Virus record (IMG/VR): IMGVR_UViG_3300006929_000159
Location: 1-21,127 of that record
DNA from: a virus
Length of the DNA stretch: 21,127 nucleotides
Strand: one strand, 5' to 3'
How positions within the stretch are numbered: position 1 is the first letter of the stretch; every line of letters starts with the position of its first letter. Shown here in pieces: positions 8,466 through 17,660 of the stretch. The notes under the pieces are model-generated. The model ran no database searches. It worked only from the letters and a program-made list of their open reading frames with translations, and was not told the origin of the DNA. The translations under genes and the position numbers were made by a program.

Positions 8466-9263
8466 TCAGTCCTCCAGTTCTTCATCAGGCATGTCACCGA
8501 AACAGCCACACCCACCCCACTCAAAAAGATCAATTTCAGATTGATGCCGCCCCCGGAATTCTCGGAGCGTTAGTGGTTTGGTCGTTCCGCCTCTGCGATC
8601 TTTGAGGATGGAAACATCTTTATTGAGGAGTGCCCTCATTTCCTCTTCCTTCATCTCGGCTTCAGCATATTTTTCTGGGAGTTTTTCCAAGAGAAGTTTG
8701 AAGTGGGCTTGTCCTGCTTTGATGCAGAAACCTCCACAGTTATTGTGTGGAAATCCCATCGCGTATAACCGTGGAGGATCGATTCCAATTTTTTCCAGTT
8801 CTTGGGACATCTGATTGGGCCAGATTATTGGCGGTTCAGTTAAAACCCCTTCCACTTGGTAGGGATTCCAATACAATTTGGACCGTTCCAGCCTATGTTC
8901 TTCATCAACATTCATTCCTAGATGTAAAACGACAGAGTCAGGGTCTGGGTAATTATCCTTGACCCAGCGCTTTGCAATTTCACGTTTTAACACACGCGAA
9001 CACGGGTCAATGCGGGAGTTACCTAAATACTTTACGTCTTTAAAAACCTCCCACGGGTTACGACCATCCGCCAGCCATGTGATTTCGCAGTTTAGATAGT
9101 CTGCACCCTCGCGGAGAAACCGATACAAATCTTCATCTTCATATTTTGTGTCGGTAAATAGCAATCTCATGTTTTGATTACCGTGCTTTTCTTTACACCT
9201 AACGGCAGTGAAAAATGATGACATTCCGCCACTAAAAAACACCACATGGTCTTGGTTTGACAT
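8466..9263 (-). CDS. PAPS-reductase/ATP-pyrophosphatase-fold protein, unknown substrate
   Basis: This 265-residue protein has an N-terminal PP-loop (FFSGGMSSF, residues 9-17). That places it in the adenine-nucleotide alpha-hydrolase superfamily with PAPS reductases, DndC and tRNA-thiolation enzymes, which adenylate or sulfur-activate a substrate. Five cysteines sit in conserved-looking contexts: C88 (RIDPCSR), C176 and C180 (HNNCGGFCIKAGQ), C252 and C254 (GGCGCFGD). They could bind Zn or an Fe-S cluster. KDVSILKDRRGG near 215-226 is also typical of this phage/bacterial subfamily. The sequence does not show sulfate reduction; DNA or RNA modification is equally possible. It starts a gene string with the exonuclease after a 38-bp gap that holds a direct repeat. 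Confidence 0.87.
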   Translation of the reverse strand: MSNQDHVVFFSGGMSSFFTAVRCKEKHGNQNMRLLFTDTKYEDEDLYRFLREGADYLNCEITWLADGRNPWEVFKDVKYLGNSRIDPCSRVLKREIAKRWVKDNYPDPDSVVLHLGMNVDEEHRLERSKLYWNPYQVEGVLTEPPIIWPNQMSQELEKIGIDPPRLYAMGFPHNNCGGFCIKAGQAHFKLLLEKLPEKYAEAEMKEEEMRALLNKDVSILKDRRGGTTKPLTLREFRGRHQSEIDLFEWGGCGCFGDMPDEELED

Positions 9264-13284: not shown

Positions 13285-13713
13285 CTAAACGATCAAATCT
13301 ATTTTTTGAGTCCGGTCTTTCCACCATTTCTGAACGTCAAAACCAGGACATTCTTTCTTCACATTGGGGAAATCGCGGTGGCCCCTGAGGGATGCCTCTG
13401 GGTATCTATCAAGTAAGTCACTAATCAGATTTTTGAGCGCATCAAACTGCTCGTCAGTAAAATCAGAAGTTCCAACCAGACAGATGCCAATTGAGGTTTG
13501 ATTAAATCCACGAACGTGAGCGCCTATGGCGTCGATGTCGCGTCCGTTTTCAACGGTGCCATCTCTGCGAATGATTTTGTGATATCCGCAGCCAATCCAG
13601 CCACGTTCTTTGTGCCACCTGTCGATCTCGGCAAAGCCTATGTCCATGTCGGGTGGGGTCGCGGCGCAATGAATTGCGATCCAGTGCGTGTCAGTTCTTT
13701 TCTTCGTTGCCAT
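13285..13713 (-). CDS. N-acetylmuramoyl-L-alanine amidase (T7 lysozyme gp3.5-like)
   Basis: The 142-residue zinc amidase cuts peptidoglycan; in T7 the same protein also binds and inhibits the phage RNA polymerase. Zinc ligands H15 (AIHCA), H112 (LRGHRDF) and C122 (KKECPGF) and catalytic Y44 (CGYHKII) and K120 are all in place, so it should be active. RDGTVENGRDIDAIGAHVRGFN and SIGICLVG further match the family. The ATG at 13713 is chosen because AAGGAGG lies upstream and the homologous T7 N-terminus has similar length; it starts 23 bases inside the endonuclease gene. The polymerase gene in the same phage makes dual function plausible but not shown. Confidence 0.94.
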   Translation of the reverse strand: MATKKRTDTHWIAIHCAATPPDMDIGFAEIDRWHKERGWIGCGYHKIIRRDGTVENGRDIDAIGAHVRGFNQTSIGICLVGTSDFTDEQFDALKNLISDLLDRYPEASLRGHRDFPNVKKECPGFDVQKWWKDRTQKIDLIV

Positions 13714-14185
13714 GGGGTGGGGGCCTCCTTGCCTCCCGTAACCACTCCTCCGGTACACTGCCCTTGGCGTATTTGTATGAATGTCTGTCGCACCACATTG
13801 CGTATGTGGTTTTTGACTGTTTCGATATTCGCTGGTTGGGGTTTGAAAATACGAAGCGGATGTCGCGATCAGGGTGTTGATCTCTGATTAACAAATGCTT
13901 CTGGCGATCCGCTGTAACGAACCGGCCCTTGGTTTCAACAATGATACCGTTTGGTAGACAGAAATCAGGGGAGTATCTCGAAACCTTCGCGGGCTTAACA
14001 TACTCAATCCTGTCGTCTTTGTGTTCGTACCTGAAATCTACTCCAGCGGACTTGAGTTGTTCTGCGACACGTTCCTCAAGCCCGCTTCTAAATCCCAACC
14101 GTAACCCAACAGATTTAGAAGTCTGTGGGGATTTCCTCTTCGTCCTCTTGCGTGAACGCGAAGGGGTCCTCTTCGGCTGGGGCAT
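13691..14185 (-). CDS. Endonuclease I, Holliday-junction resolvase (T7 gp3-like)
   Basis: The enzyme resolves branched DNA and breaks down host DNA. Active-site residues of the T7 enzyme are all recognisable: E37 (RSGLEERV), E54 (RYEHKDD), D74 (YSPDFCLPNG), E84 and K86 (IVETKG). HLLIRDQHPDRDIRFVFSN follows, also as in T7. The ATG at 14185 gives 164 residues (T7 149). The extra N-terminus is very basic (KRTPSRSRKRTKRK) and is encoded in the region that overlaps the acidic tail of the ssb gene by 71 bases. A GGAGGAGGG site lies 11 nt upstream. A longer frame to 14245 is open but lacks support. Confidence 0.93.
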   Translation of the reverse strand: MPQPKRTPSRSRKRTKRKSPQTSKSVGLRLGFRSGLEERVAEQLKSAGVDFRYEHKDDRIEYVKPAKVSRYSPDFCLPNGIIVETKGRFVTADRQKHLLIRDQHPDRDIRFVFSNPNQRISKQSKTTYAMWCDRHSYKYAKGSVPEEWLREARRPPPHGNEEKN

Positions 14186-14729
14186 CTGTCTTGAAACCCT
14201 CCTCCATTTCGTTAAATCCAAAGGCTTCAGCGTTTTCTCCTCCACCCGTTTTAAGATCGATGATTTGCACGGCGACGGGCTGTAGCTTCACGCCCTTTTT
14301 TGGGATGTCGTAGCAATACACATCGAAAGCGACGATCATCTTGGTGCCGCCCCACGGCTCGACGCCGCCCAGTGGTTGTGGGGGTGAAGAAGTGTCGAAC
14401 AGTTTGGGTTTCCGTTCCCACATTTCGCCGTCTTTGCGGACAACGTTTTTGACCCTCAGCTTGAACATAATGTTGCCGGTGGGATCACCGTCGTCATCGG
14501 TTTCGACTTGCCAAAGATTGCCGCCGTCTTTCGGCACCGGCTTACCCGTGTGGTCTTTATGAATTTTTCCCAATGACGCCATTAGGGTTTGTGCGGCATC
14601 ACCAGCAACCCGCACATCGGCTTTCCAAATTCCAGCATCGTGGAACTTGGTGTCAGGCCGGTGCAAGGCGGGGTATACCGCCTCACCCACAGGTGTGGAG
14701 AAGCGGGGCAACTTAGTGGATTGAGCCAT
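14115..14729 (-). CDS. Single-stranded DNA-binding protein (T7 gp2.5-like)
   Basis: This 204-residue protein corresponds to T7 gp2.5 (232), which coats single-stranded DNA and links polymerase and helicase. The OB-fold region shows K-[LF]-x-x-P-x-G-x-A-x-[YF]-P at the N-terminus (PRFSTPVGEAVYPALHRPDT) and WKADVRV, FKLRVKN, and GTKMIVAFDVYCYDIPKKGVKLQPVAVQIIDL further on. The C-terminal tail is strongly acidic (EEDPFAFTQEDEEEIPTDF) and ends in phenylalanine, the hallmark needed for protein contacts in gp2.5. The ATG at 14729 has AAGGAG 7 nt upstream and is chosen over 14753. The gene overlaps both neighbours. Confidence 0.93.
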   Translation of the reverse strand: MAQSTKLPRFSTPVGEAVYPALHRPDTKFHDAGIWKADVRVAGDAAQTLMASLGKIHKDHTGKPVPKDGGNLWQVETDDDGDPTGNIMFKLRVKNVVRKDGEMWERKPKLFDTSSPPQPLGGVEPWGGTKMIVAFDVYCYDIPKKGVKLQPVAVQIIDLKTGGGENAEAFGFNEMEEGFKTDAPAEEDPFAFTQEDEEEIPTDF

Positions 14730-15103: not shown

Positions 15104-15121
15104 TACCAGTTGGTAGGGATT
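15104..15121 (-). promoter_or_regulatory. Palindrome and promoter-like motif downstream of the RNA polymerase gene
   Basis: Plus-strand TACCAGTTGGTA (15104-15115) is an inverted repeat of TACCA around GT, merged with the minus-strand motif AATCCCTACCAA (15121-15110). The CCCTACCA core recurs in the gap at 9281-9289. Sites for the phage polymerase lie just after the polymerase gene in T7 (phi-1.1), so a promoter is conceivable. The same 12 bases also occur inside a coding region (8856-8867), which weakens the case. Confidence 0.25.
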
Positions 15122-17660
15122 AGGAGAAAAAGAAGTCATTTTTCATCACCTCCTCAATTTCAAAGTCTCCGCGAACCGGCGCGGCATCCAGTTTCTTATT
15201 ATCCTTTTCTGACAACAGAGATCGAACCTCTCTCTCAAAATCACCTAGGACATCGTGATTCTTAAAGACATTCACAAAAGCTGGCTTGATGCAGCGATCC
15301 AGGAAATCAGGTAAATCAGCGCAGTGAACGCCATAGCTGTCGTGAATCATATTAAAGTACATCCGCCCTCGACCTAGTTCGTTTTCAATTGCTAGGGCGT
15401 TATTGACAGCCTCGCGGAGGATGCAGCCATCCAGACTGTGTACCCAATTTGGGGCAACGGAGGATGCCATGCGGCGCTGGTCTAGCTGATCAGTGTCATG
15501 GTGAAGGTCGAGTTTAAAGACAACACCATCAAGGAAAGTCTGGACACGCTGGGTGGTCTGTTCGTAACGCGCTTGCTGAACTGGTGCGCCATCGGGGGTG
15601 TACCAAATCAGCGGTATTGGCTTCTCCGATTTGCTCACCAGCCGTGACGCTGTCTGTAACCACTTCATACAAGACCGAGCGGCAGGGATCGTATCATCGA
15701 TGGCCTTCCAGACATGACCAGCGACATAGCTGATAAACGGGCCGTCCTTCTCATCACCCATCGGGTGGGGTTCACCCTTCTCGACTCGCTCGTTGATCCC
15801 GTCGCGCACATACTTCATACACGCATGGAAGGTGCCAGAGTATGGGACTACCATGGTGGGGCGTTTGCACTCCTTGCGCCCAATCCCAAAATCCAGCGCA
15901 GCTTTTGCGTATTGTATTTTATCGGTACTAGATTCAACCCACATTGCGTGATTAGCGAGATCAGCAACCCTCTGGTAAATGTCCATGCGCTCATTTGTGT
16001 CAGTCAAGTTGACATGCGTGGCACCCTCTCGGTCGCGCAAGGCGGCACTAAATATTTGCATACCACTGCATGTGGCATCGACGTTGGCGGGCAGGTGGGA
16101 AACGAACCCCAAGCCCTCTTGATTAAACCGCGACCATTCCATGGCCCAACGAATAAACTGAAAAGGTTCATCGGCCTCGCACCAGCGGAGATCGTTAAGG
16201 GGGTCAGCGGCGACCTCTAGGATCATCTGTTGGTTATCGACTGTCCAATCAGCCCGCTCCTGTAGAGGCAGTTTGTCCATACCAAAGTGGTTGGCACCAA
16301 TGATTGCCAGCCATGCTGCCTGTTCCTCAGTTTCGATCTTTTTACCTTGGGCAAACTCCAGCATCGCTTTGACAAAATCTGGCCCCTGCGGGTTCAGATA
16401 GGTTGGCACAGGATATAGACGCCAGCGGCTGTCGGCCTGCATGGGGAAATAGATTTCAGGCTTGTCCTCAAATTTCTTGGCAAGGTGGACAACCCTAGCA
16501 ACCATCAGGCGCTTACTGATCCTGCGCCGATTGCGATCATGGACGTAATAACAGTCCCGTCTGTACTGGTTCTTGACCTCACCAGCTTCATCAGCACCTT
16601 CAGGCGCTTCAGGGATCGGCTCGATGTCGGAGAGGGGGAGTCCCGCTAACTCCCTATTAAGATCGAAGATATGCTCAAGTATCTCAGGCATCACTGGGCT
16701 GATCCTGTAAGGGGTCTCTTGAATCGCATTGATTGCAGCCAGCGGGCGCTCAAGGTCCATATTAGAAAGTTCCTCAAGGAAGTTCCGTTTGACGCCTTTA
16801 ATCAGTGGGTAGGGCGTAACGTGATTGGTGTAATATCCGCCCCCGAATAGATCGCCGTTCCGCCATGGCTTCGGGGGTGCCAACATGGGAAGGTAAACGG
16901 TGAATACATCTTCATTATTCTTAATCCGCTCACTGATCTTCTCTATCATCGCTGGGGTGGCCTGAACGATTCTGCGGCGACGGCGCTGTTCGGATACTAA
17001 AGGCATCGTCACCATGCCTGTCGAGTTAGAGAACAGTTCTGTCAGTTTGACCCCAAGGATCAGACAGTCCTTTTTGTCCCACACCTGCCACGCCATCCTT
17101 AACTGACCAAACTTCCGCTGGATCATTTCCTTCCGGCGTCTGCGAGGAAGGTCGCGCCTGTCAAAATCCTTCAGCATCTTACGGGCTAGAGCGCGGTGGT
17201 TTTCCTCGAAATAGCGGATACGCATTTCGTCATGGATCATGGTGCAGCCGCGTATTGCGAGGGCGCTGAGGGCGGTGGTCTTACCGTCCCGATTTGTGAG
17301 CGGTACATAGTTCAGTACAGCTTTGGTGAACAAATAGGCCACCGTTGGAACGTCAATATCCTTCAACAGGATGGAGGCACGGTGACGCCTTCCAGGTTTT
17401 CCGCTGTCAGCATCATCAACAAATTTCTGAATTGCGTCCTCAAACGGCTGGATCACATGATTGAGGATGGCGCGTCCAGTATGCGTTGACGAATAATCCC
17501 CGCGCTGCTGGGCCTTTTGGTGCAATCGGTTATATCGGTTGATCGTTTCTTCGCGCATATAGCGTTCAAGTTTTTTCTGTGCTTCAAGGGTTTTTGCTGC
17601 TTCAATCAATATAAATCTCCGGTTTTCTGCTGTGCGTGGCAAGTCTGTATTCCCAACCAT
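15120..17660 (-). CDS. Single-subunit DNA-directed RNA polymerase (T7 gp1-like)
   Basis: This 846-residue enzyme (T7 883) transcribes middle and late phage genes. Catalytic residues correspond to T7: D528 (NVDATCSGMQIFSA), R595, K599 and Y607 (GIGRKECKRPTMVVPYS), and D774 (NMIHDSYGVH). The C-terminus FEIEEVMKNDFFFS matches the T7 foot. The specificity loop lies about 684-715; by eye R705 aligns with T7 R746, and Q707 falls where T7 has N748, implying a different promoter. The ATG at 17660 has no ribosome site and overlaps a promoter-like motif. A TTG at 17609 has GGAG 7 nt upstream and would give 829 residues, so the true start may be there. Confidence 0.97.
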   Translation of the reverse strand: MVGNTDLPRTAENRRFILIEAAKTLEAQKKLERYMREETINRYNRLHQKAQQRGDYSSTHTGRAILNHVIQPFEDAIQKFVDDADSGKPGRRHRASILLKDIDVPTVAYLFTKAVLNYVPLTNRDGKTTALSALAIRGCTMIHDEMRIRYFEENHRALARKMLKDFDRRDLPRRRRKEMIQRKFGQLRMAWQVWDKKDCLILGVKLTELFSNSTGMVTMPLVSEQRRRRRIVQATPAMIEKISERIKNNEDVFTVYLPMLAPPKPWRNGDLFGGGYYTNHVTPYPLIKGVKRNFLEELSNMDLERPLAAINAIQETPYRISPVMPEILEHIFDLNRELAGLPLSDIEPIPEAPEGADEAGEVKNQYRRDCYYVHDRNRRRISKRLMVARVVHLAKKFEDKPEIYFPMQADSRWRLYPVPTYLNPQGPDFVKAMLEFAQGKKIETEEQAAWLAIIGANHFGMDKLPLQERADWTVDNQQMILEVAADPLNDLRWCEADEPFQFIRWAMEWSRFNQEGLGFVSHLPANVDATCSGMQIFSAALRDREGATHVNLTDTNERMDIYQRVADLANHAMWVESSTDKIQYAKAALDFGIGRKECKRPTMVVPYSGTFHACMKYVRDGINERVEKGEPHPMGDEKDGPFISYVAGHVWKAIDDTIPAARSCMKWLQTASRLVSKSEKPIPLIWYTPDGAPVQQARYEQTTQRVQTFLDGVVFKLDLHHDTDQLDQRRMASSVAPNWVHSLDGCILREAVNNALAIENELGRGRMYFNMIHDSYGVHCADLPDFLDRCIKPAFVNVFKNHDVLGDFEREVRSLLSEKDNKKLDAAPVRGDFEIEEVMKNDFFFS

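Follow-up and report, generated by a model that had tools for sequence, protein, structure and literature searches.

Two-frame use of an SSB gene end: an acidic tail and the basic N-terminus of endonuclease I share one stretch of DNA in a T7-like virus

In a 21,127-base virus fragment (IMGVR_UViG_3300006929_000159, hereafter the window, to which all coordinates refer unless another contig is named), the end of a gp2.5-like SSB gene is also read, one base over, as the beginning of an endonuclease I gene. This arrangement raises the question of how the same letters can specify an acidic tail in one protein and a basic N-terminus in the other, whether the second reading is used, and whether the basic residues that it adds to the nuclease are likely to serve the enzyme.

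The 71-nt overlap and its gene context

A Pfam search of the window revealed that its minus-strand gene set follows the T7-like phage order (Table 1). As a tyrosine integrase gene lies beside the RNA polymerase gene, the phage may be temperate. No tRNA genes were found in the window, and a PAPS-reductase-like protein (PF01507, slightly under the curated cut-off) appears to be encoded among the replication genes (8466–9263, minus strand). Judged from profile and structure matches, the assignment of the two overlapping genes to endonuclease I and to the gp2.5-like SSBs is firm. The Phage_endo_I profile gives a whole-domain match that spans nuclease residues 25–157, and the T7 endonuclease I structures 1m0d, 2pfj and 1fzr match the nuclease with E about 1e-38. 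The core residues of T7 gp3 (SGLE, PD, E-KG) are all present, with S34, G35, L36, E37, P73, D74, E84, K86 and G87 being invariant in the nuclease alignment (A1). The SSB in turn is matched by a gp2.5-like profile, while a profile built from its relatives matches the T7 gp2.5 structure; its acidic C-terminal tail with an aromatic last residue (...EDEEEIPTDF) is common to these relatives.

Table 1. Features of the locus, with the SSB stops of five related contigs in the last row (numbered on those contigs)
Feature	Coordinates	Strand	Basis or remark
Tyrosine integrase, PF00589	17856–18956	−	Pfam; just upstream of the T7-type RNA polymerase
RNA polymerase, T7-type	15120–17660	−	Pfam
gp2.5-like SSB	14115–14729	−	phrog_112, E 1.1e-21; 1je5, E 1.4e-20
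AGGAGG, Shine-Dalgarno-like, 12 nt upstream of the nuclease ATG, within SSB codons M-E-E-G	14198–14203	−	
Nuclease ATG, formed by the SSB Asp codon GAT and the next G (T-D-A: ACA GAT GCC)	14183–14185	−	Sequence
Overlap of acidic SSB tail and basic nuclease N-terminus, two frames	14115–14185	−	Translations; relatives
Nuclease Thr-Ser-Lys, the +1 reading of the SSB end Asp-Phe-stop	14114–14122	−	Translations
Endonuclease I, T7 gp3-like junction-resolving nuclease, 164 aa, ATG at 14185	13691–14185	−	PF05367, E 1.6e-51
Amidase	13285–13758	−	Pfam
T7-type primase-helicase, family A DNA polymerase, 5'-3' exonuclease		−	Pfam
Ribonucleotide reductase, head-tail connector, capsid		−	Pfam
SSB stop in related contigs	near 1505–1514 (L063, L067, L061, L093); 612 (L064)		

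The overlap runs from the first base of the nuclease ATG to the last base of the SSB TAA. The nuclease frame is +1 relative to that of the SSB and neither frame is interrupted, which confirms the 71-nt overlap and the frame relation proposed in the first-pass annotation. The SSB ends in TDAPAEEDPFAFTQEDEEEIPTDF before its stop and the nuclease begins with MPQPKRTPSRSRKRTKRKSPQTSKSVGLRLGFRSGLEE; the acidic tail APAEEDPFAFTQEDEEEIPTDF of the former corresponds to MPQPKRTPSRSRKRTKRKSPQTSK in the frame of the latter. A start made of GAT followed by G is the commonest context among overlapping relatives (30/59 clusters), and the imprint that the SSB end leaves in the nuclease recurs in these relatives as TSK, TSN or ISK. 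The Shine-Dalgarno-like AGGAGG was not seen in the closest relatives, so that its use can only be inferred; we likewise infer that in this phage the nuclease is translated from the ATG at 14185.

At the other end of the nuclease gene, a smaller version of this arrangement appears, from the sequence alone, at the junction with the amidase gene (13691–13758, minus strand). Shifted by one base, the codons for the last nuclease residues ...HGNEEKN and the stop give the likely amidase start MATKKRTD; the likely amidase ATG lies inside CAT followed by GGC, and acidic nuclease codons would again give Lys.

Conservation and codon constraint in relatives

Relatives were gathered from viral contigs, genomes and annotated phages by their resemblance to the window or to one of a few further loci, and their nuclease starts were picked by rule, from the start codon and a ribosome-site score. 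In the closest relatives (83–84% nuclease identity) the overlap is 65 nt long and no ATG, GTG or TTG occurs from the SSB stop to the nuclease core; initiation must therefore lie within the SSB gene. Across 227 non-redundant junctions, the +1 overlap is obligate in 126, which have no start codon past the SSB stop, while 26 overlap in +1 but could also use a later start and a single one is in +1 with no standard start. The window falls among the 26 because of a single TTG past its SSB stop. The remaining junctions have the nuclease in the +2 frame with a start at or after the SSB stop (58), in frame 0 (10) or far from the SSB gene (6). None of the 227 has a long +2 overlap, as expected from the fact that GAT followed by GA makes TGA in +2; within the last 60 nt of the tail, a stop is met in +2 in 54 of the 59 overlap clusters and in +1 in 11 of the 59. 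Overlaps in +1 are also annotated in public phages, namely CRP-118 (41 nt), CRP-804 (35 nt), CRP-403 (38 nt), CRP-171 (23 nt), HTVC041P (44 nt), S42-C7 (44 nt), HTVC121P (32 nt) and HTVC011P (65 nt). Whether related phages share the overlap, a question raised by the first-pass annotation, is thus answered by these junctions: the overlap is conserved.

Two further arrangements were observed among the relatives. In five contigs (L063, L064, L067, L061 and L093) DFI are the last SSB residues and the stop codon coincides with the beginning of the nuclease core (FRSGLE), which places the entire nuclease N-terminal peptide inside the SSB gene. In Bordetella phage BB8 (L027, 1427–1613), the endonuclease is annotated from a TTG, so that nothing but LKYGFRSGLE remains of its N-terminus; an open basic +1 frame runs into the SSB tail and holds a GTG 23 nt inside it; the annotated start may thus be too late.

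In order to detect selection on the second frame, synonymous change in the SSB gene was compared between overlap and body for 35 disjoint sister pairs whose overlaps measure 26 nt or more; the last 14 SSB codons of 24 non-overlap pairs served as controls. In the overlapping pairs, the share of same-residue SSB codons that differ falls from 32.0% for the body to 16.5% for the overlap, a ratio of 0.52 (bootstrap CI 0.35–0.72), while in the controls it is 22.4% for the tail and 21.4% for the body (ratio 1.05, CI 0.79–1.39). The suppressed variation that the first-pass annotation had suggested looking for is therefore present, with synonymous SSB change about halved in the overlap and not in the controls. 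When matched by amino acid, 48 synonymous differences were seen in the overlap versus 83 expected. Simple conservation of the overlapped tail does not explain this, since changes at codon positions 1 and 2 are more rapid there than in the body. The suppression is a family-level signal and does not come from the closest pair, as the window and its closest relative alone show no lower synonymous change in the overlap (5/10 vs 62/119).

The suppression also differs between residues, in a contrast found at follow-up and resting on small counts. Glu swaps (GAA/GAG), which exchange Lys and Arg in the nuclease if a purine follows, occur near the body rate (ratio 0.82, CI 0.46–1.32). Asp swaps (GAC/GAT), which exchange Thr with Met or Ile, were seen in 1 of 30 cases when the last two residues are excluded (ratio 0.11, CI 0–0.44); in non-overlap tails the Asp swap ratio is 1.03. 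The nuclease reading is under selection.

These observations bear on whether the nuclease instead begins at or after the SSB end, with the upstream frame untranslated and the reduced synonymous change reflecting a ribosome-binding site or another RNA signal. The TTG of the window, 16 nt past the SSB stop, would give M-GFRSGLE, and the 26 junctions with a possible later start also carry a start codon there. No ribosome-binding site is visible for this TTG, however, and the relatives in which the overlap is obligate make a start past the SSB stop unlikely. Moreover, non-overlap tails, which must also hold the nuclease ribosome-binding site, display no suppression, and the codon pattern tracks the nuclease residues. 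We therefore regard a late start as highly improbable.

Charge of the second reading and the likely role of the basic arm

Each nuclease codon in the overlap takes its first two letters from the end of one SSB codon and its third from the start of the next. As the first-pass annotation correctly stated, GAA and GAG are read in +1 as Lys or Arg; if the next base is A or G, this holds whichever synonym is used. If the next base is G, GAC yields Thr and GAT yields ATG. Of 20,000 synonymous recodings made from the SSB tail of the window, 100% left the +1 frame open. The net charge of the overlapped stretch, observed at +9, was 9.0 ± 1.2 in these recodings and 8.8 ± 1.2 in a further comparison with random recodings. 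By comparison, stretches of 24 codons from the SSB body have a mean charge of +3.0 in the +1 frame and are open in 37%. Over 92 loci, the mean charge of the overlapped stretch is +4.05 versus +3.83 in the recoding null. Open frame and charge thus follow from the SSB amino acids, and basicity beyond synonymous recoding is small across loci and nil for the window. Chance does not account, however, for the conserved start or for the codon constraint seen in relatives.

A Glu/Asp preference of overlapped tails was considered and is not claimed, since the raw difference (0.54 vs 0.27–0.38, p 1e-5 to 1e-6) loses significance once loci are clustered by nuclease identity (p 0.07–0.15). An alignment of 13 diverse SSBs was too divergent for a pattern scan.

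The first-pass annotation took the extension to be absent from T7 gp3, which is wrong. T7 gp3 begins with MAGYGAKGIRKVGAFRSGLE, and its N-terminal peptide, MAGYGAKGIRKVGAFR, is basic and shorter than that of the window by 17 residues before FRSGLE. The 16 N-terminal residues of T7 endonuclease I are predominantly basic, and in their absence facilitated diffusion or sliding on duplex DNA is lost and junction cleavage is slower (PMC9547003). In our clusters, the median N-terminal peptide has 22 residues and a net charge of +5 in overlapping nucleases versus 14.5 residues and +3 in non-overlapping ones (p 2e-5 for charge), and no overlap cluster has a net charge at or below 0. Charge per residue is +0.23 in the N-terminal peptide versus +0.04 in the rest of the nuclease, and the arm of the window is among the 9 of 150 overlapping junctions that reach +11. 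Basicity is therefore a family trait, found in T7 gp3 and in non-overlapping nucleases alike, and the overlap adds to the length and the charge of the arm. The earlier proposal that the SSB tail forces the charge of the nuclease N-terminus thus holds for the overlapped stretch but not as a family-wide cause. Non-overlapping relatives without a basic extension, which were thought to speak against it, make up only 8% of the non-overlap clusters. AlphaFold gives a pLDDT of about 47 for nuclease residues 1–30 and above 90 over most of the core, and the arm is accordingly predicted to be disordered.

The extra residues might nonetheless be a pure by-product, idle in the nuclease and produced by any acidic tail read in +1, with the overlap retained for compactness or coupled translation. 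The agreement of the overlapped charge with random recoding and the loss of the Glu/Asp bias after clustering are both in line with this. Yet the nuclease frame is codon-constrained in a manner that tolerates Lys/Arg swaps and not Thr/Met swaps, the corresponding segment of non-overlapping nucleases is basic too, and the peptide has a function in T7 (PMC9547003). Where the overlap comprises 12 or more full codons, the charge also lies slightly above the null (+0.42, p 0.0007, with related loci not being independent). On balance, we find the by-product account unlikely, although it is the strongest of the rivals.

Electrostatic contact between the two products, which the first-pass annotation deemed conceivable, would make them a co-encoded interacting pair in which the acidic SSB tail binds the basic nuclease extension. 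Their charges are opposite, and the T7 gp2.5 tail binds other replication proteins (PMC5686142). However, opposite charge follows automatically from the code in such an overlap and is no evidence of binding, and in T7 both charged ends are present while the two genes lie 400 nt apart. The idea is thus conceivable but unsupported, and we consider it improbable.

By analogy with T7, the extra residues are most likely a functional DNA-contact arm written on the SSB tail. We hold with good confidence that the locus represents a conserved same-strand overlap in which the nuclease initiates within the SSB gene and carries a disordered basic arm, which prolongs the basic peptide known from endonucleases I of the T7 family and most likely keeps the enzyme on DNA. 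An acidic SSB tail is an easy site for such an arm, as the +1 reading turns Glu codons into Lys or Arg, Asp codons followed by G supply ATG starts, and stops are rare. More tentatively, the +1 frame of acidic SSB tails could have been used repeatedly as a source of DNA-binding arms, a functional basic nuclease arm being acquired or extended as the start moved upstream into the tail, with Asp providing the start, Glu the charge, and selection sparing only Lys/Arg-neutral changes; we give this broader scenario somewhat less than even weight. A nuclease tree based on few columns and with few supported branches requires a minimum of 15 switches between the overlapping and the non-overlapping state (21 when shuffled), so that repeated gains are plausible in a tree too poorly resolved to prove their independence.

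In this natural case the genetic code itself would tie together two charge needs within a single short stretch, that of an acidic tail for protein contact and that of a basic arm for DNA contact; more than 100 phage relatives serve as replicates, and relatives lacking the overlap as controls. A further consequence is that, in some phages, endonuclease I calls that place the start past the SSB stop are probably too short.

Comparison with known systems

A literature search, conducted mostly outside the subscription journals, found no description of an SSB/endonuclease I overlap. Among the closest counterparts are the Roseobacter and Pelagibacter phages CRP-118, CRP-403, HTVC011P and HTVC121P, which share with the window the genes, their order, the +1 frame, the basic N-terminus and the TSK-type imprint. 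The annotated overlap in phages of these hosts is 23–65 nt, and that of the window is among the longer and more basic ones. T7 gp3 (PF05367; PDB 1fzr, 1m0d, 2pfj) belongs to the same family, with 49% core identity to the window nuclease, and in both a disordered basic N-terminal peptide precedes the FRSGLE helix. This peptide has 14 residues and a charge of +3 in T7, and 31 residues and +11 in the window. In T7, gene 2.8 sits between the SSB and nuclease genes, whereas in the window the two genes overlap.

The rule that acidic codons become basic residues in another frame is already in the literature, where the acidic tail of HMGB1 becomes an Arg-rich tail (PMC12871928). The HMGB1-type frameshifts are mutations that replace the tail, whereas in the window two neighbouring genes make use of one frame each. 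Overprinting with dual-frame constraint (e.g. PMC3744397) likewise translates one DNA stretch in two frames; the overlap in the window is short and terminal, and it extends a protein that already existed instead of creating a new gene.
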